This document shows, piece after piece, positions 8,024 through 64,000 of a stretch of 64,000 bases of DNA. A program made the position numbers and the translations under genes. Each line of letters starts with the position of its first letter. The first letter of the stretch is position 1. The notes under the pieces were generated by a model that was not told the origin of the DNA, did no database searches, and saw only the letters and a program-made list of their open reading frames with translations. The stretch spans positions 10,720,275-10,784,274 of the forward strand of contig NC_134032.1 of NCBI RefSeq assembly GCF_964204645.1. Direction: 5' to 3'. Source of the stretch: Tubulanus polymorphus. Taxonomy: Eukaryota; Nemertea; Palaeonemertea; Tubulaniformes; Tubulanidae.

Positions 8024-8066
8024 TAAGATATTTCAAATTACTTTTAATTTTTTTTTCTTTAAATAA

Positions 8067-8228: not shown

Positions 8229-9066
8229 AACATGAATAATTTTCCAGACATCTCATTAAAGAGTGCATCACATACATTGAAAATACCTTTTTTAAAACGG
8301 CATAGACTGCAAGTGAAAGAATCCCTTGACTGCCACAGTAGCATTCTCAGTTCACCTTTATATTGCTATATGAAAATATGTATTGATTCTTCACAAAGGA
8401 TCTATTGTGATTTTAGTTCAGTGAAAATCCAACAGAGGGGGTAAAGTATCGAAATGAGTTTTAGAGCCAAGAAAAAATAACAAAAACCTGCCGAAATAAA
8501 AAAATACATTATTTCAAGTGCATCTATGGATACAAAACATATTCAAATTACTCGTAGATTAATTATAATTAGACAACGTAATTAATCGTCTAACGTATTT
8601 GAACTTATTTAGAAACGACTGTGTTATCATCTGCAAGGAAATAGCGGAATAGCTCTCATCATGTAGTTCTACTTTCATCTCGTAGATGGCGCATGTGTGA
8701 AAGGATAACAAATGAACGAATTCATATAACTTGTTAGAAAAACAATTAGTTCCGGGAAATTCTGATAGATGGCGATCGTGCATCAATCTTTACTAATGCG
8801 AATTTAGGACATTAACTAGCTTATTATTAGCTTGATTAATCAGTCATTTATCTAAGCCACTACTAATTAGTCTCAATAGACCGGAAACCTGGACCACCCC
8901 CAGTTATCCTCTGCTCAATGACTACCCAGTTCCAGCGTCAATTGACCGGGTTCAAACCTGGGACTACGCAGACTATTAGCTTCAATCTTAACTCTATTCA
9001 GCAAAAGGAACGCTCCAAATCAGTTAATATAACATACAACTCCCATATCGCACTTAGTTCATTAGC
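8229..9066. repeat. Repeat family copy including tandem unit 1
   Basis: The copy runs from 'aacatgaataattttccag' to the start of the tandem duplicate. The part 8398-9066 is repeated essentially unchanged at 9071-9739. It carries a 75-codon minus-strand ORF (8559-8786) that is identical in the second copy, is not conserved as a protein in other copies, and is not called as a gene. Confidence 0.8.
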
Positions 9067-13270: not shown

Positions 13271-16200
13271 TTACGCGTACGAGAATTCCGTGCGCCGGTC
13301 CATTTCGAATCCGTCGTATGCGTGCGCGTCGAATATGTTACTGTTGCTGTGAATATACGACGTTGGCGAGCGAGGCGGGTACGACCGTTCGGGCGGTCGC
13401 GGCGGTTCGCGTTTCTCGCGGCGGCTACGACGCACGAATAAACAGCACATGCACATCGCGATCGTCAGCAAAACGAACGTGCCGGCCGCGAGTACGTACG
13501 TCGTCATGTAGTACTCCTTCTCCAACATGGCCGCTTCCGGAATTATCCACTCTGAAATATAAGACGAAAACACAACGGCGAATTATAGCTATTTCAAATG
13601 ATTCCATGACAGGGCCATACGTATTGTTCACTCCTGGATATATGGAGTTTTAAGTTTTAAAAGAGAAAAATTTCAAATATCGAAGAAGCGTCTGCATCAC
13701 CTTTGTACCCTAATTACAATAGACTCCTTCTAAATCGGTACTGTTTATCTCAGTAAACCATTAATTCAGTGGTTTTAAGCTAATTTTTATCTTTTAGACT
13801 ACCTAAGCTCGGTTTTAATTCGGTAACCACCTAATAGGGTATTAACAAATCCAAACTGTACCAATAAAGGCATAGTTACTGTACAACCACAAAAAAATTA
13901 GACAAATCTAATTTCTTAACGCCTATGTCTCGAAAATGAAAGTTTTAAAGGAGCTACAGGCAATTTGCTCAAGAAAATTCGTTCAGAAGGAGTTTTTAAG
14001 GTATCCAGGAGGGATCTTGACAATTTAAATTTAACCATTCTGAGCTTGCGGTAAACTTGTTCACAAAACCAGACCCAGTCGAAACTCAATATTGGTACGT
14101 ACCATTATCGATGCGCGCGTAATGTCGAAAGTAATGGTTCCAAAATCCGTAGTAACTCTGTCGATATGCGATCTGATTGGTCAAATTCGGATAGCCGATG
14201 TTGATGTACGTCAAATTCTTCAAGTTGTACGAGTAGAAGTACGTTTCGTTCAATTTCTCGGGCGTCGGGTCCCACAGTTTCGAGAAGTTCGTCAACATGA
14301 ACATCATGTAGTTGCTGATGTTCTTGTCGAGGTCGGAGAAGTTCGTCTGGTGAACGAGTCCGAGGTCGTTCGTGTCGTTCCACAGCGTGTAGTTGAACCA
14401 CGGCGCTCCGTACAACCACGGTAACTCCTCGCCGGCATACGCGCCTTTAAAAAAGAGAAAGAATTTATTTATCAATTTGTCGAACAGGGTGGCCACATTC
14501 AGCCAATTTACAAATCCCTGTTTTCCTAAATCCGAGTTTTCCCTTATTTTTCAATGTGATCACGCAAAATTTCGTCCGTGAATCTGAGAAATTTCTAGGT
14601 TTAAAATGTTACGATTCATTCATTTTTCATTGAATCACGAATTGATATAGAAACAAGCAAATACTGCGCCTCTCAATTATTGTAAGCCTCCGAATTAGAA
14701 TTCATGTACATGTACCGCTTTTATGATTGACGACACACATCCTCGCTACAACAGGTAACACGTTATTAACCACAAACCGCTCTATTCGATATCATCATAA
14801 ACAGTTAGTTACTTACCCATCCATTCGGGATTCGTGCTGTTGCCCGAAACGTAGTCGAACACGTAGAAGTACGTGCGATTATCGAATCGAGCCTGATGTT
14901 TTAACGCCGCGTCGACGCAGCTACCATACTTCTTATCAGTCAACATCTATAAGCATACGTATAAAAGAATATTACGTTTCAGTTCTCTGTTTTTACTCAA
15001 TGAGGTTAAAACTTTAATAATAGCTATAGATATTGCGTAGTAAGGATTTGGTTCAGTTTCACGGTCGAATTTACAGATATAGGTAGCGATGGGAGGATGA
15101 GAAAGGAATAGAGATAAGAGATGAGAAGCGTGAGAGACGAGAGGGAGAGAGGTGGAAGGGAGATATAGGATGAAAAAGAAAGAGGGATGATGAAAGGGGA
15201 GATAGGTTGAGAAGGGGAGATATGGAGAGGGATGGAGAAAGGAGATGAGAGAGGGCAGAGATGGGACAGGGAGATTGAGAGGGAGAGATATGAGAGGGAT
15301 GGAGAAAGGAGAGAAGAATTGAGAAGGGACAGAGAGAGGTAGGTTGAGAGGGAGAGATGAAGGGAAAAGGAGAGAGGAAGGAGAAAGGAAGATAAAAGAG
15401 AGAGGAGGAGAGAGATAAGTGGAGAAAGAGCGAGATAGGAGGGAGGACACATGTTTTAACCATGTTTTAGCCACCCTAACTTCTGAATCTCTAAAATCTC
15501 ATCGATACTCACGTCGGTGAAGTTGAGCCGGCGTATCGTATCGTTGTGCGGATCGGGCCAGTACGTGTATTTATACTCTAACAGGTCTAACACCTCGTCG
15601 GTGTTCTCGATGCTCCACTCGTTCAGCAGTCGACGCGTGTGCTCGCGGAATCCTGCCTTCGTCAGGCCGTACGGCGAATCGCCGAGATACTTCGCTACAA
15701 ATGATAACATCTTCGTCAAATTTCATTAAAGGCGACCAGCACTCGGCAGACGGCGCAACAAAACACAGGGTTATTCGTGTAGTGAAAATCAGTTCATTTT
15801 CAATGAAATTTAATCGAAATTTTTCGGCAACCAAATTTTAAAATTATCAAACAAGTCCTCGAATAGATATAAAATTGACTTTCCCATTCAGTTTATGGTT
15901 AAGGTTTACTGGAAATTGATTTACTTATCGGAAAAGTTAACTCAATTTCATTGGAATATAGAAGGAATTGAAGCGCGGTAGCGGGTTATCGCTTGCCACA
16001 GTAGCATTGCTGTACCCCATTACAATACATTCTTCTCATTGTTAGATGAATTCATAATTAATATTTCAAAGGTGATATCTTTAAATTTTCTCAAATGAAA
16101 ATTGAGCCATCGTACAAATGAAAAGGATAGCATCGTACCACGGGGATGACAAGGTATTCATTAGTGGTAGCTGGTTGATGAAATTGACTTCAAAAAAGAT

Positions 16201-19200
16201 TGCGGAAAAACGCTGCCCTCAGCAAATACTATGCAAGAATTTCTGAAATATATTCCGGTAAGCGGAAAATCTATCGAGTTCTCAATAATGTTTCCGAACA
16301 GGGAAGTATCATTTCGAAAATTAAGTTTAAGATTTCGCGACGAATTACTCCGGTGGTTTTTACCTGCGAGTTGAGCAGCTCCGTATCGCGTTAATCCGGC
16401 CATGTAGGGAATCTTTTCGAAACGACCGTTCGCCCGCGCGTACCCCGGAGAGGTCGGCATGAATTCGTAGGACCCGTCCCAGACCGGAGTCCAAGCGAAA
16501 CCGCCGCGTCCATTCTGTAGAAAAAAAAATACGAGAAAAACGTTTAGTATCGAATAGACGGCTCTTCTCAAATCCGTGTTTACTAGATAGCACCGACATT
16601 CAGCAGTCAGCCTTCCATTCGACAAATATCCCAAACCGATTTCAAAAGTATCTGGATGAAGAATGCGAAGTAAAACTTGAGATTGGAGACTGTGACAGTG
16701 AAGATTATATAAAGGATAAAGTTAGTTTCTGTGGCCAGTTGCATAGTCGTGGCTTAGACTGAAGACCAGTCTAAGACCAACTTAGTTCTATAGGCAATCT
16801 AACAACTTAAGACCATTCTTAAGATTTAAGTCCACTTTTGGACTTAAGTCACGACTGTGCAACTGCCCCCTAGTGCCCCAATTAAATTAAGCCCTCTCCT
16901 GTCTGATGGAGGAACTACAGTTGGAAATCACCCCTGTTGATCTACCAAGGAGTGGATCCGGTAGCCGGATATTGCCCTCGACTAAAGATTTATGTTAACC
17001 CTTTCAGTGCTGGCTAATCAATACCCTATAGTGCTGAAGATAATTTGAAAATTCTGAAATATATCACCCTAGTGTGTTGAATAACGGGAATAGTACTCTA
17101 GTGCGTCTACACCCTGGTGCGGTATATCGTTAGTTACTAATATTTCACTATGTTTGACAGGTGCTGCCATCTTTCAAGAGAGATAATTAGTAATTACTAA
17201 TGTGTACTAGCAAAACCCATCACTGAGGTTTTTGGCATGGTTTCTATATCCGAGGAATTCCCTTCGTTTTTCTTAAGACCCAGGGGCCAGTTGCATAGTC
17301 ATGGCTTAGACTTAAGACCAGTCTAAGACCAACTTAGTTCTATAGCTAACCTAACAACTTAAGACAAGTCTTAAGATTTAAGACCACTTTTGGACTTAAG
17401 TCACGACTGTGCAACTGGCCCCTGCATACTAATTTTCTTCGACCCCTCGCTCAGCGGTCGTCACTTACCCCCGGTGATATTTTACTGCCAGCACTCAGTA
17501 TCTCGTCGACGGGTTTATCTCGTAGACAGCGTAACATCTCCCAGTGTTGCTCAGGCTTACACGGACAGTTCAACATACAGCCGAGTTGTTCGGCGTATTT
17601 CTCCGGCTTCCAGAACTGAGACGTGTACGAATTCTCGCATAAATCGGAACCGTCGATCGCGATAGCTGCTTGGAACAAACCTATAATCATAGATACATAC
17701 ATTTACAATGCAAGTTTCATCAGATTTGAGCACAGTTTTAGTAGATCATGCGAGCCAGATTTTAGTGGATTTGAGAAGATTTTAAGTTGATATGCGCTCA
17801 GTTTAGTTTTTAGGTACCCATATGGGTAATTAGAGCTCATGGCATTTTAGTTAATTTCAGTGAAGTTTAAGTGGATTTGAGTGAAGATTTAGATAAATAG
17901 AGCCTGTTTTGAGTTGATTTGAGACCAGTTCTTGGTCTTTGAGTGCAGTTTTAGATGATTTGAGCCATATTTTAGATGAATTGAGCTTAGTTTGATTGAA
18001 TTAAACAGGTCTAGTCGATTCAAGCCCAGTTTCTTGTTTAAGCTTTTTCTTTAAGTTCCCTTCAAATGGGGTAGTTTATCTAAGGCTATATCTTGTTTGT
18101 TTGAGCCTGGTTCTGGTTAATCTAAGCCCAGCTCTAGTTTAATTTAGCACAGTTCGAATGAGCTAAACTTGAGCTTGAGCTCACACCAGAGCTAATTCAT
18201 TATTTTTTTCCGGTCTCTTTTCAGGTTTTCATGATCACCCAGGGTGAACTTTGCATTTCGTGCATTATCGACAAGTGGTTGCAGCTCATTGAAACCGATA
18301 TATAATTCAATGTTCACGTCGCATTTCACAGCTTCGGCCATCTCTGAACTAGGGTCGAACTACAGCGACCTATTTTCGAACTTTAATGCAAACGAACTGA
18401 CATTCGATTTCAGTTAGTTCGCAAATAGTCGACTAACTCCGATATCCGAAGTTCGCGCTGGTTGATGAAGGATAACACTGTAAATCGTACCTCGACTACG
18501 CGAGCGCGGAGACACCATATGCAACCCGACGCTGATACCGCCGGCTTCGCTTCCCATGATCGTGATCTTCGTTTCGTCGGCTCGCAAGTATTCGGCGATG
18601 TCTCGTACGAACTCCAGCGCGGCGAGCTGATCCAATAATCCGAAATTACCCTTCGCGTTCTCGTCCTGCGTCGATAGGAAACCTGCGGGTGAAAAACAAT
18701 GAATTCATTAAATTTCCTAAGCTAATCAAAATCAGGTCTTTTCTATTTTTGTTATTAATTGTAAATCCTCTATTTTACTCCATTATAGCATAGAACGGTT
18801 GCAATGTAATAACAAACAAGGAAAAAATTCTTAATACGGACTTTCCTAAATTTACGTGATGGTCCATGGTAAATCCATACTATCAAAATAGGTATAACTA
18901 GAACCGAAGCATTTAAAATTCATTTAGATTTCATTATAGGCCTACTCGTTATTTTAAAGATTTAGAATATGCGCGCTTGCCGTTTGTGTTAATCACGGCA
19001 GCGCGTAGTTGCTAGAATCATTCGTAGTTTCTTGGAAAACTAGGCCGTGCAGGAGGCACGCTTTTCATGTACGCAGCTAGCAGTAGTGAATAGATACACC
19101 ACATAGCAGCCAGTCTGACACACGTGTGAAGCACGAATATACGTAACAACGAAGTGTTCTTCCAACAACAAATTAATATAACTAAAACCAGCAAATAAGG

Positions 19201-21657
19201 AACGCTTTGCGACGAAATTCAATAGGGTTAGAGATTTTACAACCGCAACTTCTGCATCGAATATGTTGAAAGTTCAGAAGAGAAACTAAGCCTGTTTCGA
19301 TAGTTATTTTGTACCAATGGAAGATAGTATCATACGTGATCTAGCAAAAATGGACTTGGCTCGAGGGGGTCCATAATACCTGTATTTGTTATCATATCTC
19401 CGTAGCGAATGTTTAGCCCGGGACCAAAGGCTTTCTTTGTAGGAGGTATTTAACTGAACACGCTTACCGTACGCGCTTATCAGCGACCCCGTGTTAGCGG
19501 TTAGTCGTACTGAAAGAGGTTTAAACACTCACCGAACGGGCCGAGTCTGTAGTTCACGGTGACCAGTATGACCTCGCGCGTCGCCAGGTAATATCCCGGG
19601 AAGAGCTGACCGCTTCCGTAGTTGAACTCGCCGCCGTGGAAATAAACGATGATCGGAAAACGAGGATTCACCGGGTGAAACGGATACTCACGAGTCGATA
19701 TCTACAAATAATGACATTCGATTTAATCGTAATCTAATCATTTTCTAAGCGCTGGAAAAAGAAAATGAAAATTCTATGGATCTGGGCCAAGGTTTACAAG
19801 AAAGATAAAACCTCAAGTTTTGAGTTTAATGTTTTTGGTTTCTTCAAGTTTTCGATGTGGACAACAATTCAAACACAATTGTTTCTTAACCCTTTCGGTG
19901 CTGACTAATAAACACCATAAAGTGCGGGAGATAATTTGAAAATGTTTGAATAAGTTCAGCCCAGTGCATCAAATAACAGGCATTCGCTAATAATGTATCG
20001 TATATATGTAACTACTGTAGGTGCTAACATCTTTCATTAGAGATAAAAATGTTTACGAATTACATCAATACACCGCAGTGCGGTGTACTAGCAAAGTCCA
20101 TCACCGTTTCATACACCGCAATGTGGTGTAGACGCACTGAACGGTTAACCTTAAATTTTTTCGCGAAGCTGGGCTCCCAAGAGTAAGGTTCAACTCAAAG
20201 AGTTTTAGTCGGTTCATTTTACTCCAGAAGCAAGTATTGTTGAATTAATATATGTCTGCGTAATGCAGTGAGTATCAATAAAAGATGATTTTTCATTTTC
20301 ATAATATAGGAGATTCCGTTCGAGTCGATATCCCTTTAACTGAGATGTTTGTTAAAATATTTTTCATGGCACTATCTATGAAATACATTAAAGCTAATTC
20401 AGTAGCATTCAATTCAGAAATTTTTACAGTCCAATAAGATCCAACTTGAGCGGAGTCTACGGTACATTTGTCGGCTAGGTATGTCTTAATATGCTCAATT
20501 TAATGCAAACGCATATTACAAAATGCTTCCTTATTAATGAAAGAGTTGCTTTGAATGGTGTGTGAAACGGAAGCGTACTTACATTCGGTTGAAATATGTT
20601 CAAATAAAGACAATCTTCGCTGATGTTGACTTTGTTGATGAGATGCTTTTGAAGATACGCCGGATCCTGAGGACACGCCGGCGGCCATTTCTTCGCTTGC
20701 CAGGGCCGGTACCATCTCGTCTTGGCAGGAGGCTGGCGAAAAAAGGACTAAGTTAGTGAACCATTATCATTAGTTCGACAATTTGTCAGCAACAATGAAA
20801 ATGGGGTACCAGAAATATACCAGTTTTCACAACAGGTGATACGTAAACCTGGACCAACCAACCAGTAAAATGACCTGGTGGCACTTAACTTGCTACGGGT
20901 ATCCTCAATTGCCACATGTATGTCATACTACACACTAGCGACACCTGGTGGATCCTCACTTGCCACAAGTGGAATCCTCTATAAGCGCAGTAGTTGATGT
21001 CCAACTGCACACTAGCGACACCTGGTGGATCCTCACTTGCCACAAGTGGAATCCTCTGTAAGCGCAGTAGTTGATGTCCTACTGCACACTAGCGACACCT
21101 AAGGTATCCTCACTTGCCACAAGTGGAATCCTCTATTGCCGCAGCAGGTGATGTTTACTGCAACACCTGGTGAATCATCAATACCACAGTAGTCAATAGC
21201 CTATACTTCTACGTGCTAGCAAACCTGGTGGATCCTCACTTACCACAAGTGGAATCATTTCCACAGTTAAATTGTCGATACTAGATTTCCCAAATAAGCA
21301 ACTTACCCTAAATCTGTAGTATCCAATAGGTGGCATCGCGTACGGAACGCCGAGGTACGTATTGACCCGAGTGTGTGGGTGTCCGACGTTTACCGTGTAC
21401 CCGTGAATATCGCCGTACTCCGTTACGACCGACATGTGATTATAATTCGAATTTGGATTGTACAGAAAGTTCACGTCGCCTTTTCCCCAGTCGAGCCAAT
21501 TCTGCCACATGCTACCCACATCCATTTTATCGCCCGGACGCCACGGCCTCAAATCGGGATTCTGTATTTTTGGATCCCACGGGTTCCAGATGTTGTCCTC
21601 TTGCGAAGCTACGCCCGCAATCAAGCACGCGGTATATAAAATAACAGCGCGCAGCAT
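13271..21657 (-). CDS. Neuroligin-like (catalytically dead cholinesterase-like) adhesion protein, 10 exons, 719 aa
   Basis: Exons (minus strand): 21307-21657, 20583-20732, 19533-19701, 18491-18682, 17469-17680, 16364-16514, 15513-15694, 14817-14946, 14103-14444, 13271-13551. All have GT-AG junctions, phases match and the total is 2160 nt. The protein has a signal peptide (MLRAVILYTACLIAGVASQ), then an alpha/beta-hydrolase carboxylesterase domain: YLGVPYAMPPIGYYRFR, SEDCLYLNIFQP, HGGEFNYGSG and NYRLGPFG. A single TM segment follows in the last exon (TTYVLAAGTFVLLTIAMCMC), then a short tail ending FSYA, a weak fit to the class I PDZ ligand. The nucleophile elbow is GSEAGG instead of GESAGG, as in neuroligins (GSGAGG). 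The His position reads AYAGEELPWLYG and the acidic residue is lost in GLTRYG, so no triad member survives. The likely role is cell-surface adhesion rather than hydrolysis. A 5' UTR acceptor lies at about 21680. Which metazoan neuroligin/gliotactin/neurotactin branch it belongs to is open. Confidence 0.9.
13700..14010. repeat. Dispersed repeat in intron 9 of the neuroligin-like gene
   Basis: It matches 37440-37810 in the VAC8-like gene intron, for example 'aaatcggtactgtttatctc' and 'agaaggagtttttaagg'. No TIRs were identified. Confidence 0.6.
14525..14720. repeat. Dispersed repeat (intron 8)
   Basis: It resembles 30040-30190: 'cgaattgatatagaa' compared with 'cgtatcgatatagaa', and 'ttcattcatttttcat' compared with 'ttcattcgtttttcat'. 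Confidence 0.45.
15080..15445. repeat. Purine-rich low-complexity tract (GAGAGGGA-type)
   Basis: About 365 bp of almost uninterrupted purines on the plus strand, in intron 7 of the neuroligin-like gene. The three overlapping Ser/Pro/Leu-rich minus-strand ORFs are artefacts of this composition. Mirror-repeat character could allow triplex (H-DNA) structure. Confidence 0.85.
16733..16872. mobile_element. Palindromic MITE (ggccagttgca family)
   Basis: Left end 'ggccagttgcatagtcgtgg', right end 'cacgactgtgcaactgcccc'. The interior 'cttaagacc' motifs are also self-complementary. It lies in intron 5 of the neuroligin-like gene. Confidence 0.75.
16994..17225. mobile_element. MITE with 'ttaaccctttcagtgct' end
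   Basis: It shares its end and interior with 19886-20149, 49630 onward, about 51010-51045 and 62754-62950 ('gtttgacaggtgctgccatctttca', shortened here as 'aggtgctgccatcttt'). The right end is eroded. It lies in intron 5. Confidence 0.55.
17281..17425. mobile_element. Palindromic MITE, second intact copy
   Basis: Left end 'ggggccagttgcatagtcat', right end 'gactgtgcaactggcccctg'. This copy and 16733-16872 lie about 550 bp apart in direct orientation in intron 5 and ends just before exon 5. Confidence 0.8.
17715..18175. repeat. Degenerate minisatellite, ~24-bp unit (intron 4)
   Basis: Repeated variants of 'gatttgagcccagttttagt' fill most of this intron stretch. Copies differ widely, so the array is old. 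Confidence 0.65.
18690..19530. other. Intron 3, no further feature seen
   Basis: Several short minus-strand ORFs occur but none continues the esterase fold. Nothing else is recognised. Confidence 0.5.
19886..20149. mobile_element. MITE, complete copy (264 bp) in intron 2
   Basis: Left end 'ttaaccctttcggtgctgac', right end 'gtagacgcactgaacggtta'. The ends are imperfect inverted repeats. An internal palindromic block 'tacaccgcaatgtggtgta' is repeated. Confidence 0.7.
20931..21257. repeat. 77-bp tandem repeat, three full copies plus degraded flanks (intron 1)
   Basis: Units start at 20931, 21008 and 21085 with 'cacactagcgacacct', each containing 'tcctcacttgccacaagtgg'. Degraded copies continue to 21257 and precede the array from about 20870. 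The palindromic core 'ccacaagtgg'-like string sits in every unit. Confidence 0.85.
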
Positions 21658-22115
21658 TTTCTATTCTTTCTTCGGTCCTGATTAAGAAAAATATCATAAA
21701 TTGTAATAGAAAATTTCAGGATGAACTCGGTTAGTGGGTTAGAATTGGGAGAGCCAATGTTTTGAGCTGAACGCGATGATTCACTACACTGATTACTGTT
21801 AATTCTGAATTCCAGAGGTTTCGCCCATTCAGCTTGCAAACCAGATGAAACTATACAATACAAATTGAATTACGTTCACTGTTTTTAGCTCAACGCAGAC
21901 TTCTGTCGTCAAATTTTGAATGCACACAAGATTAAATCATTCATACCAATCATTTAGATGGCTGGCTTTCAGATAATTTGTTTTCTGACACAAATTAGTG
22001 CAAATCAATATTAAATGTATCTTCGTACAAATTAGATCTAATGCTACGACGGTTTAAATATGGATAATTGTTTTCAGAAATCTGCTGCGGACCAACCAGA
22101 TCGTTTGAAAACACG

Positions 22116-23102
22116 ATGAACGAATCGCGAATTTATTTTTATGATCCGTTAGCGGAGGTCGCGTGGTACAGGATAACGTACATCACACCTCCGCTAGTCA
22201 TAGTCGGCGTTACGTTCAACGCGATGGTTATCGTCGTATTTCACAAACTGAAAACTAAAAACCGCTGCTTCGATTTACTGAAATACCTCGCACTCGTCGA
22301 CATTATGTTTTTGCTGGCAATGTTCATTTTATTCTCAGTTCGTTATTACATTCACTACGCGTGGTATGGCGAATCTATCAAGAAATTTCCTAATTACCGA
22401 ATTTCCCCGATATACATAAGCATATGGGGAAGTATGTTTTATAAAGGATTTCTGGTGCTTCGCAATTATTTGACCGTCATCATTCAATGTGAAAGATTGG
22501 TAACTATCAGTTTTCCGCTACACGCAAAACGTAGCTTGAAGCCACTTGTCATTATAACGGGTACATTATCGATGTCTATAAGCGCTTACTACCCTATTAC
22601 GATGAGGATAACATCGTCGAGTAGTTACAAAGAGTTTCAATTTGTTCATTATCTATCTCACACTCCCGGGGGCTATGAAACAGTTTACAAAATAATGAAT
22701 AAATACGTTGATCCAATCATTCGCGTTATTACTTCAAATATTCTAATTTTCGTGGCGAAAATAGCTCTCGTCATTGTTTTGTACGTCAAACGTAAACAAC
22801 GCAAAACCTTGTCGGCGTCGAAAATCTCGACGTCTCAAAATCAAACGAAAGCCACAAAGATGGTGCTGTCAATGAGTTTCGTATTCACTATACTAGAATT
22901 TCCAGGTTTCTACGGTAAGATCGGCGGAAAGGACGCGGGTTCTATATTTTACAAAGACGATTCGGTGCATATTTACCAGATCTCGTCGATTTTCAATTCG
23001 TCAGTAAATTTCGTTCTGTATATAATCGTAAACAAACAATTCAGAAACACCTTGTTGCATTTGTTTAAAATCAATCGAGACATCACAGAAAATTCAACGT
23101 GA
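22116..23102 (+). CDS. Rhodopsin-family GPCR (328 aa), single coding exon
   Basis: The open frame extends back to 22068 without an ATG; the first ATG is at 22116 (MNESRIYF), preceded by an acceptor (TTTTCAG, 22071-22077), so a 5' UTR intron is likely. It has seven hydrophobic segments. The end of TM3 reads CERLVTISFPLHAKR (an ERL variant of DRY) and TM7 has NSSVNFVLYIIVNKQFR in place of NPxxY. An N-terminal sequon (NES) is present. It shares the ISFPL motif with the receptor at 3.0-4.1 kb, so both belong to one expanded family. The ligand is unknown. Confidence 0.85.
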   Translation: MNESRIYFYDPLAEVAWYRITYITPPLVIVGVTFNAMVIVVFHKLKTKNRCFDLLKYLALVDIMFLLAMFILFSVRYYIHYAWYGESIKKFPNYRISPIYISIWGSMFYKGFLVLRNYLTVIIQCERLVTISFPLHAKRSLKPLVIITGTLSMSISAYYPITMRITSSSSYKEFQFVHYLSHTPGGYETVYKIMNKYVDPIIRVITSNILIFVAKIALVIVLYVKRKQRKTLSASKISTSQNQTKATKMVLSMSFVFTILEFPGFYGKIGGKDAGSIFYKDDSVHIYQISSIFNSSVNFVLYIIVNKQFRNTLLHLFKINRDITENST

Positions 23103-54007: not shown

Positions 54008-54345
54008 TTCTCATAAATGCACACGAATAGGGAAACGCTCGGATACATGTTTCTGTCTCCATGTTTCCCTGCATCGTGTGCGTTGGGTTTCAGAAACAAT
54101 GAAAGGCTAACAACGTCTCTCGTAAACCCACACAAAGCAAGGATACGCTCGGAAACATGTTTTTCTCTTATGTTTCCATGTTTTCCTGCATCACATGCGT
54201 TTGGTTTTAGAGGCGAGAATAAAAGACTTCCAATGTCTCTCATAAACGGACACAAAGCAGTGAAACGCTCGGAAAAATGTTTCTGTCTCCTGTTTTTATG
54301 TTTCCCTACGTCGTGTGCTTTTGGCTTTCCTCTCCCTTTGGAACC
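54008..54345. repeat. Three ~107-120-bp tandem repeats just past the homeobox stop
   Basis: Each unit contains 'aaacgctcggaaacatgttt'-like and 'tgtttccctgcatcgtgtg'-like segments, at about 54031, 54149 and 54260. The array lies within 10 bp of the homeodomain stop codon, so in the 3' UTR. On the minus strand a long frame stays open through all three units. Confidence 0.75.
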
Positions 54346-54353
54346 AGAAAAAT

Positions 54354-55374
54354 TTACATCGTCGGCCGCAGTTGTTCCGTTTCCTTTTTCCACTTCGAAC
54401 GTCTGTTCTGGAACCAAATTTTGATGACTTTCTCCGACAGGCCGAGTCGATTGACCAGTTCCTCGCGTCGACCGGCGTCGCCTAGATACATATTCATGCG
54501 GAACTCGTATTCGAGAGTTTGTATCTGGTAATTGCTAAAATTCGTACGCGGACTACGGAAACTATGACCGACGCCGACACCTGCGAAAGCGGCAGCGGGA
54601 CTGCTGAATGCCGCCGCGCCACCGACTCCTCCGGACGACTCAACTACAAAAAAGAAAATGTTACAATTAGTGGGAAATTTAGAGATATAACAAGGTGGTA
54701 GCCTGAGACTCAAGTGTCGCAGCTAAGTCAGATTTGGCATGAAGTTGATAAAGTTCATTATTTCCCCAGTCATTTAGCTTCGATCTGTTAAATTTCAACT
54801 CAAAACTGTAGAATTTGTTCCAATTTGCCGATTGCGCAGTCGAGACTTAAATCCAAACAGGATTAAAATTTTCTAGACTTGGTCTTGGCCAACCAGGCAA
54901 GGATATTTTCTTGCAGGGATCAGCACGGTGAAATTATAGTAGGATGGTTTACCCTCATCTATGCTATGACCTAAAAACATTTTTCGCTCAAATGCCAAGT
55001 ACTCTGCCAAGTGCTTTCAGGATTATACCCAACTAAGCACTAATCAGGGCCGGAATCCAAAATCTGTTCAAAAGTAAGTACTTTTTTCGGACTTTGTCAG
55101 ACTCGCTACGAACCCTGCTTACTCAATTCAATTTCTCAATCGAGTTAGACCCCAGGTTAAAGTTAATACCAGTCTATAAAACCGGACTTCCTAGATGATA
55201 TTTCAAACTAACCCGGTTCGGGAGAGTAGTCGTCGTCTTCGCCTTCAGGGTCATAGTTCGGGTCTTCCTCGTATTTTTTCTTCCTCTTATTACTGGCTTG
55301 TTGTTGTTGTTGTGTCGAAAACGGGCGACCACTGAACCGTCTCTCGTATCTATCGTAATGCTGATAAAAATCAC
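54354..55374 (-). CDS. Homeodomain terminal exon with linked upstream exon
   Basis: Exon 54354-54643 (stop at 54354) encodes an Ala/Gly-rich leader and a homeodomain: PRTNFSNYQIQTLEYEF, then VIKIWFQNRRSKWKKE. Trp48, Phe49, Gln50, Asn51 and Arg53 are all present. It is ANTP-class in style with some similarity to NKL members such as Dlx, but too divergent to name. Exon 55213-55374 joins it in phase 1 (SPEP then V-ESSGG) and encodes a polyQ run, a basic stretch (NKRKKK) and an acidic stretch. Its own acceptor (ttgcag) is also phase 1, the same phase as all the zinc-finger exons upstream. No start codon exon was found. It may be the 3' end of a separate homeobox gene, or an alternative tail of the zinc-finger locus. 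Confidence 0.8.
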
Positions 55375-55869
55375 CTGCAATTTAAAATCACGTATTTTCT
55401 AAATCTGATGACTCTGCACAAGTACGCCAGGGGTTAGAACTCCAGAAAACTTTCATTTGTTCTCTCTAATTCGAACTTAGTTTAATTCGAAAGGGAAAAT
55501 ATGGACTGTTTTATAGGCGAGTTATGCCTTAAACCCAAGGGTTTATCTAATTGATTATGAATTGAATAAACCCCCCAGGTTAAAGGCTAAAATGGTCTGT
55601 AAAACCACACCAGCAAATTTCTATAAATAGCTTCATGGGATGGAGAGATCCATACCTCCTCCAGGCACTACCCAGAATGTCCATTTGCGCAACAATTGCT
55701 CATCATTTGGTCCATCTCTTGTGGAATTGAACCCATCCTCCTTACCCAAATCAAACTCATATAATCAGGTATCACTCAAACACAGAAAACACAATGGAAT
55801 AAGTCGAGGCAAACTTGATTTATTCAACTCAGAATCTGTACAGGTTCCTGAAGTTCATTGATCTAATGG

Positions 55870-56117
55870 AAGCTTCAAAGCGTTTATTAAAAGGGACTTG
55901 GTTGATAACATATCCATCGCAATATTGTACTATTGACTTGGTCATAATTGACCCATCACAGCAGTTGATGAGATAATTTTAGGATCTACGATTCCTTAGA
56001 CTTTTTTTTAGAAAAGCAGTATATTACAGTAGGTCAAAAATTATATCCAATCAAGTCATCAGACTGTCGGCGGCTGACAACTCCCACAGTCTGAAAGGTT
56101 GATGGCGATGTGACACT
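55870..56117. other. Non-coding interval, nothing recognised
   Basis: Includes a short palindromic stretch around 56060-56100; otherwise no feature. Confidence 0.3.
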
Positions 56118-56295
56118 ATGAACACACCCTCAGAGAGTCCATACATATCCTTGGAGACCCAATACATCCTCAAAGACTCCAAACACACCCTCAGAGAGTC
56201 CCAACACACCCCCAGAGAATCCCAACACATCCTTAGCGTCCCAATGCATCCTCAAAGACTCCACACACACCCTCAAAGAGTCCCGCCAACACATC
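56118..56295. repeat. Degenerate short tandem repeat
   Basis: About nine variants of 'ccctcagagagtcccaacaca', shortened as 'cctcagagagtcc', end immediately before the stop codon of the zinc-finger exon (3' UTR of that exon). Confidence 0.75.
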
Positions 56296-56296
56296 T

Positions 56297-56580
56297 TTAC
56301 AGTCCGAGATTCATAGTTTTCAGTTCGTCGAGAATCTGCGAATGGTTTCGTCTCATGTGAGCTTTAAGCGTATCGAGTCGCGTGTACTGAGTAGCGCAGA
56401 TCGCGCATTTGAACGCTTTACCCATCTGCACGTGTTGTACGAGCACGTGGCGTTTTAAATTGAAATTGTTCGCGCACACTTTATTGCACAGATGACACAC
56501 GAACTTATCCACTCCGCCGCCGCCGTTGTTGTCGTCATGGAAATGACCTTGAAGTGGAGCGAATGGATTAAGAAGGTCAC
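56297..56580 (-). CDS. C2H2 zinc-finger terminal exon A (2 fingers)
   Basis: Acceptor CAG ends at 56581; the exon enters in phase 1 (G-DLLNPFAP) and stops at 56297. Finger 1 is CHLCNKVCANNFNLKRH with final H in QH; finger 2 is CAICATQYTRLDTLKAH with NH. There is a Gly-rich linker before the fingers. It is the most divergent of the finger exons: it has no HGFELP tail. No start codon is used within it, so it must be joined to upstream exons. Confidence 0.8.
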
Positions 56581-57407
56581 CTGGAATGACAAGGAAGAGA
56601 TAAATTTAGAAGAAAACAACAACGGCTTTTATTGTCTGCTCGCAATGGAAAGGGTTAACGATCAATAGACATTTTCAATATTCGAAAACTCTCAATACAT
56701 TTGCTTCATTCTTTTGTAATTCCAGGTGACCTTCTAGTGTTGCTAGGATTTAGAATAGGCTAAAACAATTTGACTACTGGAGGTAGTTGCCCAGTAGCAT
56801 CAGAGAAAACCCTCAATTCACTAATGTACCTAAATCCAACACTCTCAGATGAAAATGATACTAAGAAGGATGACTGTTCCGTATACACCATGCACCTGAA
56901 CCTGTGCTGTAAGTCTGGTGTTTTGTCGGTCAAGAGATATTTCGGACAAGATTTTGTGCTCTAAATTCTATCCACAGAAGTTCAAGAAGTTGAAAAGACA
57001 ACAAATGAAAACAGAACGACACAATTTAGGAAAAATGATATAAAAATTTTGATTATTATTATTGGGCGAATAGTTTTTACAAGTAAAATTATTTTTCGGA
57101 GAATGACACGATTTAAACTTTATCGATATAGAATTTTCATCATTATTAGTCTCAAAGTTTTACAAATACAACAGCTTAATTTGGATGACCAGGGACTGCC
57201 CAGATATCTTTGAATTGATTAAAATGCGAAAATAAGATAATAATAGTTTACACGGTTCCAGGTTAAATGGACCAAATATTTCATCCGAATTAAGTAAAAA
57301 TCCGGATTAAAAAATTTGAATCAAGCAAGTTCAACAACTGTACAACTGTCATTCTTCGGTGGATATTCATTTCGTTTTCGATTACGGAGTCTTTTTCGAT
57401 CGTTCGT

Positions 57408-57880
57408 TCAATTTTGAAAGTTGTGCATTCCGACGAGCGGAGGAACGGCAGGCGGAGGATGCTTCGAATCGACGTGCGTTTTGAGGTTATCCGACCGCGA
57501 GAAACTACGCTCGCAAAACCGGCACTGATATCGCGTTTTGTCGAACATGTGAACGCCGGCGACGTGTCGATTCAGATTGAACAATTTACTGAACAATTTA
57601 TTACAAATCCGACAACGGAATCGCTTCAGGGCCGGCGGCGCTCCTCGACGACCGTCGCCGAACACCGGCGATCTGATGAACTCGACTTTATATAAAGATA
57701 AGTCCGACGACGTCGACGCAGCGGTCGGCGGATCGAGGCGACCGCGCTCGACGGGATTCTGTAACGCCTCGTACGGATCCGGCGCGCACCGATGACTCAT
57801 CGTCAAAGAATCTTCGTCCTTGTAATCCGTAGTTTCCAGATAAATGTCTGCGTTGTTGCCATGGTGATTGGCTCTCAGTC
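57408..57880 (-). CDS. C2H2 zinc-finger terminal exon B (2 fingers, long leader)
   Basis: Acceptor CAG at 57881-57883, phase 1, 157 codons including stop. About 100 residues of low-complexity leader precede finger 1 (CRICNKLFSKLFNLNRH..GVH) and finger 2 (CRFCERSFSRSDNLKTH..SKH). The C-terminus is short and ends GMHNFQN. An internal ATG exists, but the splice signal and phase shared with the neighbours favour an exon. Confidence 0.82.
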
Positions 57881-58127
57881 CTGAAAAATGTCATATGGAA
57901 ACTACGGATTACTGAAATGCGTATGGCTGCGTGTATTCACTACGTGCATTAGGAAAAATAAAACATTACATGTGTATGAATATAGAAGATGGCTGTCTCT
58001 GCAAGTCCTCATATGACATCATCAAATTTTCATTTAGATCTATTAAAAATCTTAAAACTATACATTTTTATATACACATTGCTTTCACAATTTCCAAATA
58101 CAATTGACTAAGATTGGTGGATTTTCA

Positions 58128-58325
58128 AGGGCGGATCCAGAAGCCAATTTTGAAGGACTTGTCACATCCCAAAAAGGCACTTTGCTGTCCACAAAGGCAA
58201 TGTAGGGGCACTACTGCACTGAAATTCACCAATTATCTCTATTGACAAAAAAGAAAACAGCACTCGAAAAATTTGATGTAACTGTACAAGTGTCGAAGTC
58301 TTCCTGGATCCAACCCTCAATTGGA
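58128..58325. mobile_element. gcggatcc-family MITE
   Basis: Left 'aagggcggatccagaagcc', right 'ttcctggatccaaccct'. The interior shares 'ccaattttgaagg' with the copies at 28 and 35 kb. Confidence 0.6.
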
Positions 58326-58329
58326 CAGT

Positions 58330-59490
58330 GGTTATACAGTGGTTCATTCAGATTTGACTATAAAAACTTTCCCCCTTCATAGTAACGATGAATAAGAAGG
58401 GATTATGACATTTGTGGCGGAATAATTGACTATCGAATGCAACCATATTTTCTAAGAGGTTCTCCAGTGTTGGGAAATATAAACTAGCATCTAAAACCTC
58501 AGATTACAAAGAAACGGAGAGTTCGAAATCCTCTTGAGCCAAAAGCCTTTCTTCAAAGGAAAGGATGAGACCGACGAATCAACCGATACCGAATTACGCG
58601 ACACAGAAATATCAACATAACATGAAATATGTTTCTCGATGTGGTTGGATTTATTAAAATTGTTATAAACAGTTTTACACATGATATTTCTACAACATTT
58701 TAATAGATTTCCAGAAATATATATGAACCTCGTAAATACAATAGATGCGGTACAGCTGCTATGGTCAGTGGGGCCGCAGTTTCCTAGAAATATTCGAAGT
58801 ACACAAACCCGTGGGCGGGATTTCCCGGCAATTGCACCGTAGATAAGCGTTTTAGAAGCGGTGATCCAAACATTCAATTGCGATCCCGACACAGACAGAC
58901 CCCACCAGAACCACACACGCGCAATTATTCTATTTCATTCTATTACAATATCGACGATTAAAAGTGATTAAAGCATCACGAGCTATTTACAATTTAAAAT
59001 AATCATTTCTACATCCATATCGAAATAAACGCTTCTTATTCACTGAAAAACGTTCCCTCATTAGTAGCTGCAGTGGTTCCTGGTAAACCACCTCCTCTCA
59101 ACCTCACTCAGTTTGTCCAAATTAGTCAAGGTTTACTGTATGATACTACTTATGTATGACTCCTAGTAGTTGCGCCCAGTAAATGCTCGGATGTTACTTC
59201 TCCCCAGGGAGAGGATTAATACATGAATAGATAATAGGTAATAATACCAAGTTTGGAGCGCATTTGAACAGACTCTAGATTGGATACCTGCGCTATATAA
59301 ATAACAATTATGATTATTATCATCATTACTTCTGTTTTATCAATATCAATTGCACACTATGTATTAACCATCAGGCTTTCACTCAGAAAAATACAAAGTT
59401 CATATTTGTCAACACAAATTTTCAGAATCGACTTCTTTTTTCCACTCCCACCTATCGGAAGGCATCAGAGTTAAGGGCATTCGGAAAGTA
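58330..59490. other. Interval between exons B and C, no gene supported
   Basis: A 141-codon minus ORF (58491-58916) has no zinc-finger or other motif and no phase-1 acceptor pattern, so it is not called. Confidence 0.4.
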
Positions 59491-59497
59491 TAGTCGA

Positions 59498-59570
59498 CCA
59501 CCTCGGCTGGGACTTGAACCCGGGTCTTCAGTTTGCAAGACGAATGCTCTACCAGTTGAGCTACCCGGGC
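59498..59570 (-). tRNA. tRNA-Ala(TGC)-like sequence, probably a pseudogene
   Basis: The minus strand reads GCCCGGGTAGCTCAACTGG (A box), loop CTTGCAA (anticodon TGC) and GGGTTCAAGTCCC (B box). By hand the anticodon and T stems pair at about 4 of 5 positions, but the acceptor stem pairs poorly. It lies between terminal exons B and C. It may be a decayed tRNA or a SINE head. Confidence 0.5.
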
Positions 59571-59751
59571 AGATTGACTACTGATATTTCCTGCGATATT
59601 CCTTGCTTTCCTGGCACTGGCTAAGATATCTAAATTATATCTACCCGTACAACGATCCCTGAATGCCTTACGTGTATAAAAATCTGAATTTGCCGCGCGC
59701 AAAATATGAGGCAACCGTACGCACTGACGGGCACAAAGCCCTGAGGGATTT

Positions 59752-59990
59752 CTATGTGGGTAACACCGGATAACCGGGCGGCAATTCGAACCCGTGTCGC
59801 AGCCGGATGTGACAGCGTAACGCGTCTTTGCGATTGAAACGTTTTTTGCACACCATACACTCGTACGGTTTCAGTCCGGTGTGTATTAACAAGTGTCGGT
59901 TCAGGTGGCCCGTACGCGAGAAAAACTTCCCGCAAACGTGACATTCGAGAGACGGCGCCGGCGCTGCCCGAGCCGGCCGAGTGACCGCAT
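59752..59990 (-). CDS. C2H2 zinc-finger terminal exon C (2 fingers)
   Basis: Acceptor CAG at 59991-59993, phase 1 (D-AVTRPARAA), 78 residues plus stop. Fingers: CHVCGKFFSRTGHLNRH..IH and CMVCKKRFNRKDALRCH..RH, joined by the canonical-type linker TGLKPYE. It ends HGFELPPGYPVLPT. The HGFELP-type tail is shared with exons D, E and F, showing these exons arose by tandem duplication. Confidence 0.85.
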
Positions 59991-60214
59991 CTGAAAATAG
60001 CCAAAAATGCGTAGAATTAGATATGTCTTTCGAGCGAGGAATTTCGGGTAAGTTTTTATTTTGGTCCCCCGTTAAAAGATTCGGCGGAAACCCGGCCGGC
60101 GAAAGCACGTGCGCGCAGAACCACGTTTTCTTTCAAAATTCACATTTTGGAGATCGAATGAAATAAATAAATAAAAAGTAATAAATAACTCGAAGAGTCG
60201 CGTCGAAATTTTTT

Positions 60215-60630
60215 TTATCCTTCGTCGCTTTGATTCAACAGCGGATCGAATAGATACGCCTGCTCGTCGCCGGTGACGCGCGCGGCAGACGGATCGTCGC
60301 CGGCGCCGGTGACCGTCGTTGTCGTCCGCCGCTCTCCCTCGTTATCATCGGCCGCCACCGTCAGCGGATATCGCCACGGCAACTCGAACCCATGCTGCAA
60401 ACGGATGTGGTTGCGCACGTTGTCGCGGCGATTGAAGCGTTTTTTGCAGACGATACATCCGTACGGTTTCTCGCCGGTGTGTATGAACGTGTGACGCGCC
60501 AGGTGGCGCTTCGTCGAGTAACATTTGCCGCAAATCGGGCAACTAAATTCCGAGTTCGTTCGCCGCCGGGCGTTGGTGTCCGCGATGCGCCGCTGTTGTC
60601 CCGCGAACGGCGTCGTTGTTGTCGGGGCCC
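60215..60630 (-). CDS. C2H2 zinc-finger terminal exon D (2 fingers, long tail)
   Basis: Acceptor CAG at 60631-60633, phase 1 (G-APTTTTPFAG), 137 residues plus stop. Fingers: CPICGKCYSTKRHLARH..IH and CIVCKKRFNRRDNVRNH..QH, with linker TGEKPYG. HGFELPWRYPL is followed by about 55 extra residues rich in Thr/Asp/Glu, unlike the short tails of C, E and F. Confidence 0.85.
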
Positions 60631-60939
60631 CTGAAAAAGCCATACACAAAAATTACTGGAAAATTTTCTAACGAAGTTCAATCGCAGCCCGAAAAACCGG
60701 GTTCTTACATCTTAAACATGTACATAGCTTTTCAGGGCCCCGTGAACAGCAATTCTGGGGTTTGAACCCGACGCTCATAATCCACTACGACACAAACACC
60801 GGACATTTACATCCGTCTGAATACAAGATGTTTTTACGCTCCCAAACACTGGTTAGGTACTTAAGTAGACATTTACATAGCTTTAAGGTCAATTTTAGAC
60901 AAATTTCGTCACTTCACGGTCAGCTGGAGTAACTCTGCA

Positions 60940-61185
60940 CTTTAACTGATTCGCCAATCGAAGGTCAATTTAACTCGCGAGTCGTTTCAACGTCACTTTA
61001 TCTTATGAGTCGTTTCGAGGTTGCTTTAACTTGTGAGTCATTTCAAGGTCATGTAGATGAGAAGTTTCATGGTAACTTTCTCTTACGAGTCATTTCAAGG
61101 TCAAGGTCGCTTAATCTTATGAGTCAGTACAAGGCCATGTAAACTTATGAGTAATTTCAAGGTCACTTAAACGCGGACGTAGTTT
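60940..61185. repeat. Degenerate ~30-bp tandem repeat between exons D and E
   Basis: Six or more variants of 'cttatgagtcatttcaaggtca', shortened 'gagtcatttcaaggtc'. It ends about 20 bp before the stop codon of exon E. Confidence 0.75.
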
Positions 61186-61204
61186 CATGATTTACGCGCA
61201 AGTT

Positions 61205-61506
61205 TTAATCGTCGGCGGGTTTCAACGACCAGCTGAGCGGCACCTCGAACCCGTGAGTCAGTTTTATGTGGTGGCGCACGTAGTCTTTGCGGTTGAAGCG
61301 TTTTTTACAGACGATACACTCGAACGGCCGGTATCCGGTGTGTATGATCAGGTGACGCGTCAGGTGACTCGACGACGAGAACGTTTTACCGCAAACCGTG
61401 CACGGGTTGCTACGCGGGTGATAGTTGCTATGACTACTAACGGCCTCCGACTGACGACCAGCCGACGAGCGGGCTGAGGCGGAGGACACGATTCGAAGAT
61501 CGAATT
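61205..61506 (-). CDS. C2H2 zinc-finger terminal exon E (2 fingers)
   Basis: Acceptor CAG at 61507-61509, phase 1 (E-FDLRIVSSAS), 99 residues plus stop. Fingers: CTVCGKTFSSSSHLTRH..IH and CIVCKKRFNRKDYVRHH..TH, linker TGYRPFE. It ends HGFEVPLSWSLKPADD. The second finger is nearly the same as in C and D, while the first finger's recognition-helix residues differ (SSHLTR, TGHLNR, KRHLAR). Confidence 0.85.
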
Positions 61507-61719
61507 CTGAAAGAAAAAATCGAAAAATGCCGATAATTACTACGAACCAAGGATTGCCCTCATATCTTTCTTTCATCCAGTGCCGGAAGGAGTTATATCC
61601 AGTCAGTTTTCTATGCTTTACGGTCCTAGCATACCTTACAACCCCAATGCAAACTTCGGATTATGTAACTAGCGGTCGCTATCAATCTAAGCTCACTACA
61701 GTTTGGTCTTAAGCATTTT

Positions 61720-62750
61720 CGCAGTGTCCGCCATCTTGGAATTACAGTGACCGTGTTCAGTTGCCTGGTTCACCATTTTTTGTTACTAAATGACAATTGG
61801 TTTCACTTAGTTTGCGAATAGTCGACTAATTCCAAAAACTGATCATTCATTCAAATGTGTGATATACCAACATACTAAAGGTTCTTAGTCAAATTTGTCT
61901 TAGTTTTCGCCACTGTTTCTGGCAATGTCTGTGGATTCTACGGTCATTGTGGTAGAATTCTTCATACTCGGGTCATGAGATGATTAATCGAAACCCTCTG
62001 CCGCTTGGCAAGAAGTTCGATTTCAGGATTGCCCCAGTGCTTGCACGTTGAGCCTCAGCCAAAGAGTCGGATCGCGACAAAAGGGGTGGCACATCTAGTC
62101 TTAGATCGAGGTCGATGAAGCTGCCGAGCTAGATGCAACCTTCTAGATGTTCTCACAGATATTAGACGGATAGGACTAATATTTCCGAAGAATGAAATTG
62201 GAATTCGTCGTCGGCTTCGGAAATTGAAACAATTCCTTCTCGAAAGATGTTCATCCTACTTTCCCGAAAACGACATCAAATATCAAATACGAAAAGCCAA
62301 CTTACGTTTTTTTATCTATCAATTTCGATATCGACTTTTTTATTCATCCATTTATTACACATTTTTACACGAATTACTTCGAGGTTATTTTCATCCGTTT
62401 ACAAAAGTAAATAAAAATATATTCATATACATATATGTATATATACATAAAATATCAATTACTACTAGAACCTGGTATAATATTCCTCTAATTAGTCGTA
62501 GTTCGTTAAGTTTAATGAACTAAATATTCTCTTAAAATTTTCACATCTTGAATTGATATCTAATATGACTGTACATAGAATATCCGGATTATATATATAT
62601 ATATATAAGTAGTATACACGAACATTTCATAAATACCAAAGTAAAAATGTTAAAACTGTTCAAAGCACTGAATTGTCAGTATCCGGGGCAGTTCCACAAA
62701 AACGAAAAATTTAACACTTAAATCGATTCAATTTCTTCACTATCTAGTTA
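61720..62750. other. Interval between exons E and F, no gene supported
   Basis: AT-rich. A TA microsatellite lies at about 62593-62611. Nothing else was recognised. Confidence 0.4.
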
Positions 62751-62753
62751 ATC

Positions 62754-62950
62754 TTAACTTTTTGAGTGCGTTTACACTGCAGTACGGCGTATATATCGGT
62801 GATGTACTTCACTAATACACCGCATTATGGTGTTTCGATGTAATAAGTAATTCGTTTCGTATCTCCATTAAAAGATGGCAGCACCCGTCAAACTTGGTGA
62901 TATATTAGTAACCCAGTATGGCGGTCAGATAGTCAGCACAGAAAGGGTTT
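62754..62950. mobile_element. 'aaccctttc' MITE, inverted copy
   Basis: It contains the complement of the family interior ('aagatggcagcacc') and ends with 'cagcacagaaagggtttt'. Confidence 0.6.
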
Positions 62951-62954
62951 TATC

Positions 62955-63760
62955 GATTTAGCAGTTGAACTTTTTTATGAAACTGGGTGCCGAACAAACT
63001 TGATCATTGTCGGTTCATAATAAACTGTATATCCAACATACAAACATTAAAAAAAACAAATCATAAAATCCTAAAACACAGGTTTTGATATACATTTTTT
63101 GTTGATGAAAAAAAGTCTAATAAAATGAAGTCATCAGTTGCCGGAACTTGACACAAAGAATCCTGCTTAAATCCTGTAGTTAGGGGCCGTCAATGAAGTA
63201 TGTTTATGCAAAATTAGCCTATTTTAAAGCATCAGAATTTTTGCCTTGCCTCCCTGAGGATGCATGGATGCATGCAATTCCAACATATAATGGTCTATTT
63301 GACCCCTAACAGTGGACGGCTAGTAAAATTAAAGGGATACTTCGTATCGAAAAAAAAATGCAGACATTCTGGTTTACATTGCATGCCCCCCTCAGGGGCG
63401 ATCTGATTAACACAACCACTCCCCATCCCCCGCCCCTGACCATAATATGGTCATGGATATGTGCAAATTTCATTTATCCGGGTATTTCATTTTCTTAAAA
63501 CTATTCTATCGTTTCATGGAACCTCGCTAAAACAAATTACCCTTTTTCGTCCCAATATCCGACAAGTACCATGATACCAATTGTAATTGGGCTAATGAAC
63601 TATCACTTAAAAGACCGATTCCCTGAATTCAAAATAAAGTCTTCAATAAGAAATGGTCATTAAAGCTTAACGTGATTAATTTGCAGACAAGAACTTTAGG
63701 AGTCCGGTTTAAAAAGGTTCCACATAGGTATCCTAAAATGCAGTTAAATTCGAATGAATC
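62955..63760. other. Non-coding interval, nothing recognised
   Basis: Short ORFs only. A 37-bp direct doubling containing 'gccaataggagcgagcgtta' (63770-63830) lies next to the stop of exon F. Confidence 0.35.
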
Positions 63761-63828
63761 TTGTAAAGGAGTATCGGCCAATAGGAACGAGCGTTACTGG
63801 CGGTATCAGCCAATAGGAGCGAGCGTTA

Positions 63829-64000
63829 CTACATCGGCTGAATCGAGTATCCGAACGGCAAATCGAAGCCGTGACAGTGCCGCACGTGGCAGCGCAGTTT
63901 GTCTTTGCGCGCGAAACGTTTTTGACAGACCATACATTCGAACGGTTTGACTCCGCTGTGTATCAACAGGTGGCGCTTCAAGTTATACGCGTTCTTAAAA
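63829..64000 (-). CDS. C2H2 zinc-finger terminal exon F (partial)
   Basis: The open frame runs from the window edge to TAG at 63829-63831. It starts within finger 1 (FKNAYNLKRHLLIH), then linker SGVKPFE and finger 2 CMVCQKRFARKDKLRCH with CH. It ends HGFDLPFGYSIQPM. The tail matches exons C-E, so it is another member of the array. The acceptor lies beyond the window. Confidence 0.8.
   Translation of the reverse strand, partial: FKNAYNLKRHLLIHSGVKPFECMVCQKRFARKDKLRCHVRHCHGFDLPFGYSIQPM

Follow-up and report, generated by a model that had tools for sequence, protein, structure and literature searches.

The arrangement in which one interaction domain is spliced to many DNA-binding tails is best known from arthropod BTB genes. 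In Drosophila, 17 of the 20 isoforms of lola carry different C-terminal fingers, and the searches reported in PMC11426971 recovered the multimerising TTK-type BTB from arthropods only. In mod(mdg4) of Drosophila and other insects, one set of 5′ exons is combined with many alternative 3′ parts; the protein has a BTB domain and FLYWCH tails, some of which lie on the opposite strand and are joined by trans-splicing (PMC4667647). Here we describe a lola-like locus of Tubulanus polymorphus, located at one end of a 64,000-nucleotide stretch of contig NC_134032.1 (C8:10720275-10784274, the window) and extending beyond it, in which one N-terminal part would be spliced to any one of nine zinc-finger terminal exons. 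Positions beyond the window are given as extended coordinates (C8 position minus 10720274; L009:82 is extended 64082), and the genome searches covered the 267.8-Mb assembly.

As in lola, a constant N-terminus is combined with varying C-terminal C2H2 fingers, and as in lola and TTK-type loci generally, one common 5′ part precedes many terminal exons with phase-compatible acceptors; both likenesses are drawn here from genomic anatomy alone. The locus differs from lola in that its N-terminus is not BTB, its host is a lophotrochozoan, and the layout is repeated at several loci of one family. Common 5′ exons with many alternative 3′ parts are also shared with mod(mdg4), but the tails of the present locus are C2H2, all lie on one strand, and BTB is absent. 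The locus is thus lola-like and not a member of lola, having neither a BTB N-terminus nor an arthropod host. An earlier note on this DNA had proposed a lola/mod(mdg4)-like architecture, and the exon anatomy, the phases and the Hox complement of the host (see below) support such a layout outside arthropods. As TTK-type BTB went unfound outside Arthropoda in the searches of PMC11426971, independent origin is the simplest reading; the convergent or ancient system imagined in the note is convergent in layout rather than an outlying lola, and is not a lone locus. Among the matches listed from the open-licence literature, comprising titles and abstract beginnings, no spiralian locus or N-terminal domain of such a kind was described.

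Six zinc-finger exons that the earlier note had read on the minus strand were recovered at the positions it gave, each ending in its own stop codon in the list of open reading frames (ORFs). A motif scan found two C2H2 fingers in each of the six, as had been claimed, and all five tails wholly inside the window passed the Pfam cut-off for zf-C2H2 (T4 and T1-T3 were outside the Pfam set). The five heads visible in the window follow CAG acceptors in phase 1 (56580, 57880, 59990, 60630 and 61506), again in agreement with the note, and the head of the sixth, edge-cut exon (T4), at extended position 64082, likewise has a phase-1 CAG acceptor. The motif HGF(E/D)(L/V)P occurs in four of these six tails, as noted before. 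Three more minus-strand tails, two of them with this motif, were found in the 120 kb read upstream of the window and bring the array to nine tails, T1 to T9. All nine have an open frame and intact zinc ligands. As a control, the identical scan gave no further two-finger ORF on either strand in the remaining ~169 kb of the 184 kb around the locus. The interval assigned to the array by the note does contain the six exons; its start, 54354, coincides with the stop of a homeodomain exon, which the note passed over.

The shared 5′ part, suspected beyond position 64000, was found in the genomic reading 11-13 kb past the window edge on the minus strand, as an ATG exon encoding what we call the N-domain followed by a linker exon, with putative spliced joins. 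The product of the N-domain exon is MVLFMEGVGLHVREDELKLCLRRHLDWLDEIVVTVDDNTWFRWSSRRQTVK. The N-domain has about 50 amino acids, and an in-frame TGA stands nine codons ahead of its ATG, so no coding sequence lies upstream of the start within the exon. The linker, of about 350 residues, is low-complexity and disordered, rich in Q, P and S and in acidic residues; its match to TFIIA in Pfam (E 0.043, below the cut-off) was put down to low complexity. The linker donor leaves one base, that is, phase 1, matching the need of all nine tails. It scored 6.6, against 2.3 for the best internal site of any tail, and the donor of the N-domain exon scored 2.4, all with consensus frequencies not fitted to the host genome. 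The upstream neighbour, at extended about 79.6-82.9 kb, was recognised by eye as what we take to resemble the Mediator subunit MED30, so the 5′ end of the locus probably lies before this gene.

The exons, their phases and splice-site scores, the absence of other start exons from most gaps, the selection on the tails and the layout at other loci are read directly from the DNA, and they suggest that the locus is very probably a single minus-strand transcription-factor gene, with nine terminal exons of which any one can be spliced to the N-domain and linker. Judged from genomic anatomy, the splices are apparently made and the tails are apparently alternative in RNA. A single promoter, lying before the N-domain exon, would drive transcription, and the phase-1 donor of the linker would be joined to one of the nine terminal exons, with the tail chosen through competition between acceptors and polyadenylation sites. 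Each transcript would then give one protein consisting of the N-domain, the linker and one two-finger C2H2 tail, the tail setting DNA specificity and the N-terminus staying constant across isoforms. Trans-splicing would not be needed, because the parts lie in order on one strand.

The phase was examined at 11 loci, picking the best acceptor of each tail ORF by score alone, blind to phase. The set comprised 29 zinc-finger ORFs, including the first tail of locus L054, the L078 tail and a doubtful finger at L079, with satellite ORFs excluded. The best acceptor was in phase 1 in 26 of the 29 (binomial P 5e-10 against one third), and in 28 of 31 when two homeodomain ORFs were added (P 6e-11); those scoring 5 or more were in phase 1 without exception (21/21, of which 20 were zinc-finger and one homeodomain). 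The best donor of the N-domain exon was in phase 1 at all 11 loci, and that of the linker at nine. As sister tails are not independent draws, these P values overstate the case, and more weight belongs to the consistency between separate loci.

Those loci belong to a family. The N-domain recurs about 40 times in the genome: at an E limit of 1 the N-terminus of the locus found 52 matches, part of them matches to the linker, and at a limit of 0.01 a probe resembling the family found 37. Downstream DNA was read at 13 N-domains (the window locus, the first copy in L033, L034, L054, L055, L056, L057+L082, L078, L079, L080, L081 and two in L083). At 12 of the 13, a linker ORF and then one or more same-strand C2H2 tail exons come after the N-domain, the exception being L079, with only a doubtful finger within 7 kb. 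Two or more tails were seen at five loci (nine at the window locus, eight at L057+L082, where the motif applied picks out a single regular finger in the final tail, and two each at L034, L054 and L081), these numbers being lower bounds, as the stretches read vary in length. The second large array, at C7:16175901 (+), has eight tail ORFs. At L055, L056 and L078, where 7-10 kb of sequence showed a single tail, identical joins are needed to form any gene. As read from the assembly, the window locus is one of a gene family and not a lone oddity. Separately, 15 N-domain matches, 62-69% identical to the N-domain of the locus, are clustered on both strands at C8:11413650-11638767 (L023-L028, L033).

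Several observations weigh against one gene with alternative tails. Three of the 29 zinc-finger ORFs have no phase-1 best acceptor (tail A of L034, the doubtful L079 finger and the frameshifted L033 copy), and two of the 11 linkers have no phase-1 best donor (L055 and L081). The donor of the N-domain exon is barely above the best site within a tail, so the scores separate the linker donor and not weak true donors. Between T5 and T6 there is one ATG-ORF, 23 codons long, that has a phase-1 donor; a second, of 17 codons, appears between T1 and T2 once ORFs down to 15 codons are admitted. Polyadenylation hexamers lie 154 to 1312 bases past the stop at eight of the nine tails, with none after T5, and were dropped as support, since shuffled gaps average 6.1 and reach at least eight in 53 of 500 cases, which is not above chance. 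The sole copy in the 11.41-11.64 Mb cluster on C8 with its tail read (L033) has a single poly-C2H2 tail and appears frameshifted.

This last copy would suit a reading of the array as decayed, functionless duplicates, which we consider scarcely credible given that all nine tails are open with intact zinc ligands and that sister tails diverge mainly at synonymous sites wherever this is computable. The mutual similarity of T2-T7 is what tandem duplicates would show, and four of the eight inter-tail gaps exceed 1.2 kb, leaving room for a promoter; a tandem cluster of independent two-finger genes, with their own promoters and first exons, beside an unrelated N-domain gene is nevertheless improbable. 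The T6-T7 gap measures 224 bases, and in seven of the eight gaps there is no ATG-ORF of at least 20 codons followed by a phase-1 donor scoring at least 2, so that an ATG exon for each tail, the outcome that the earlier note had set against its own proposal, was not found apart from the T5-T6 case. All nine tail acceptors are moreover in the phase of the strong linker donor, and the paralogous loci with a single visible tail show a tail to belong to an N-domain gene. Phase 1 at every tail acceptor would also preserve the frame if one long gene were spliced through several tail exons to give a poly-finger protein, which is very unlikely, since a stop in the finger frame ends every tail and no internal donor approaches that of the linker; the weak donor of the N-domain exon shows that weak donors can be real, and the case against such a protein is not absolute.

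An alignment of N-domains (A1) shows two invariant tryptophans and the consensus xVxExxLxxCLxxHLDxLDxIVxxVDxxTWxRWxxxR. None of 21 aligned N-domains had a credible score in Pfam (best: PAH, E 0.039, and SSXT, E 0.16, in one member each), where no match to the N-terminal domains of the KRAB, SCAN, ZAD or BTB zinc-finger families was obtained. The best match in PDB, E 0.72 over 15 residues, hinted at the La motif of LARP4 and was taken as chance. A BTB-coding 5′ part, as raised in the earlier note, was not borne out: the upstream search that it called for, made through the assembly and the 120 kb read upstream, found no BTB near the locus. Across the assembly there were at least 57 BTB matches, in a search run exon by exon whose counts are lower bounds, and the only one on C8 lies at 0.72 Mb, about 10 Mb from the window at 10.7 Mb; the TGA before the N-domain ATG points the same way. 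Absent from Pfam, the N-domain appears to be a new domain of effector or interaction type in zinc-finger proteins, with a role comparable to that of KRAB or ZAD; it presumably mediates the protein contacts common to all isoforms, whether dimerisation or the binding of cofactors. The KRAB-, SCAN- and ZAD-zinc-finger families are likewise lineage-expanded and partly tandem-clustered and combine a short N-terminal domain with C2H2 fingers; the present locus differs in that its N-domain matches none of theirs in Pfam and its tails multiply within the locus.

The nonsynonymous divergence (dN) was below the synonymous divergence (dS) in every sister-tail pair with a computable dS, with dN 0.15 and dS 0.91 for T2/T3 and dN 0.05 and dS 0.55 for t3/t4 of the C7 array, which indicates that sister tails have diverged under purifying selection. 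The tail tree places T2-T7 in one group that also contains, on long branches, two tails of other loci; T1, T8 and T9 stand apart. At contact positions -1, +2, +3 and +6, finger 1 of T2-T7 reads SQLR, SQLR, NYNR, SSHR, TRHR and RGHR, and finger 2 reads RDVV, RDHV, RDKC, RDYH, RDNN and RDAC. In finger 2, R at -1 and D at +2 are thus constant while +3 and +6 vary, +3 being different in all six. The eight base-contact positions have a mean of 3.1 distinct residues in T2-T7 against 2.1 elsewhere, the latter including the zinc ligands. These patterns are consistent with the tails being DNA-binding modules that differ in specificity residues.

Within the tail array, a tRNA-Ala is predicted at window 59498-59571 (-), and a second tRNA-like stretch was seen by eye at extended about 67540-67650 (-); both are possibly tRNA-derived repeats. 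Tandem repeats lie shortly 3′ of the stops of the homeodomain exon (54054-54307), T9 (56121-56284), T5 (60961-61172) and T2 (L009:2544-2941), and likewise after both tails of L054 (L054:5201-6119, 7046-7401 and 7707-8988). Such repeats might have led to tail duplication by unequal crossing-over.

The Hox cluster of the host, at C6:5318228-5634747, spans about 316 kb with ten genes and is apparently intact. By eye, from class-typical motifs, we take these to be of the types lab, pb, Hox3, Dfd, Scr, Lox5, Antp, Lox4, Lox2 and Post2, and two homeodomains at C5:5.59-5.61 Mb, also by eye, to be of the ParaHox types Gsx and Cdx; no Post1 was recognised by eye in the C6 cluster. The presence of Lox5, Lox4, Lox2 and Post2 types makes this a lophotrochozoan complement, not an arthropod one.

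Past the last zinc-finger tail, the array is followed by two exons whose membership of the locus is uncertain. The upstream one (55213-55374) encodes an acidic stretch, GDFYQHYDRYERRF...DDDYSPEPG, and the downstream one an ANTP-like homeodomain of no clear class, whose best matches are about 49-55% identical and whose grouping with the Hox or ParaHox classes of the genome is unsupported (0.17). A comparable case was observed at L034 (C7:16160301-16170100, minus strand), where an N-domain locus with two C2H2 tails is followed by a same-strand homeodomain exon. The homeodomain there, C7:16160411, is of no clear class and falls weakly beside Post2 and Cdx types (support 0.51 and 0.82). As a possible Post1, it is the ninth of 27 matches to Post2, and Post2 is the thirteenth of 23 matches to it. 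Its being the Cdx of this genome was ruled out, as a typical ParaHox Cdx homeodomain sits at C5:5608620.

We lean towards these exons forming a separate neighbouring homeobox gene rather than a tail, one whose own first exon was not recognised here; that the pair forms a tenth tail of the locus is a tentative proposal, somewhat short of an even chance. Nine of nine Hox/ParaHox homeodomain exons with a visible acceptor (of 12 shown) are in phase 1 by eye, so the phase match of the homeodomain says little and was dropped as evidence. Two homeodomains at most 25 kb downstream of N-domains arose by chance in about 4% of trials (863/20000 shifts and 828/20000 independent placements; 0.22 cases expected from 41 N-domain and 115 homeodomain matches), the 25-kb limit having been chosen after sight of a 22-kb case and the sizes of three contigs assumed. 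In addition, the C7 homeodomain might come from a Hox gene that has been displaced, no Post1 having been recognised among the homeodomains read. Against a separate gene, exon 55213-55374 lacks an ATG, and the nearest coding feature upstream of it is tail T9; ATG-ORFs with donors between the two all fall within the tandem repeat 56121-56284, and the 621-base gap at C7 has none. Each homeodomain comes directly after the last tail seen at its N-domain locus, in the orientation of that tail, and in neither case is there a supported grouping with a named class. Feature coordinates are collected in Table 1.

Table 1. Coordinates of the exons of the N-domain locus and of the adjoining homeodomain exons, listed in order along the minus strand (window positions unless marked extended)
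Feature	Position	Strand	Details
N-domain exon	extended 76698-76892	-	ATG at 76851
Linker exon	extended 75061-76119	-	donor ACCG/GTAAGT (exon/intron)
Tail T1	extended 70053-71038	-	outside window
Tail T2	extended 66920-67239	-	outside window
Tail T3	extended 65353-65906	-	outside window
Tail T4, 3′ part (exon reaches extended 64082)	63829-64000	-	2 C2H2 fingers, HGFDLP, stop
Tail T5, terminal exon	61205-61506	-	phase-1 CAG acceptor at 61506, 2 C2H2 fingers, HGFEVP
Tail T6, terminal exon	60215-60630	-	phase-1 acceptor at 60630, 2 C2H2 fingers, HGFELP, long acidic end
Tail T7, terminal exon	59752-59990	-	phase-1 acceptor at 59990, 2 C2H2 fingers, HGFELP
Tail T8, terminal exon	57408-57880	-	phase-1 acceptor at 57880, 2 divergent C2H2 fingers
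Tail T9, terminal exon	56297-56580	-	phase-1 acceptor at 56580, 2 divergent C2H2 fingers
Candidate first exon of homeodomain tail	55213-55374	-	phase-1 acceptor, weak phase-1 donor (2.0), no ATG, no Pfam match; membership uncertain
Homeodomain exon with stop, candidate tenth tail	54354-54643	-	PF00046 E 2e-21, phase-1 acceptor; membership uncertain

Elsewhere in the window, open frames at 3001-4125 (-) and 22068-23102 (+) resemble seven-helix peptide-type receptors, and exons at about 16161-21660 (-) resemble a cholinesterase/neuroligin-like protein, all judged by eye.

It is conceivable, though we judge it less likely than not, that a lola-like system of separate origin arose in a lophotrochozoan lineage, made up of some 40 related genes that share an N-terminal domain not recognised before. 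Terminal exons would have multiplied inside individual loci, and at two loci the tails would span two unrelated DNA-binding folds, C2H2 pairs and a homeodomain. If so, one gene would give rise to zinc-finger and homeodomain transcription factors with a common N-terminus. Loci with one, two, eight and nine tails would serve as natural replicates for the birth and the choice of tails. If the layout is indeed built on an unrelated N-terminal domain across a spiralian gene family, evolution would have reached this solution more than once.

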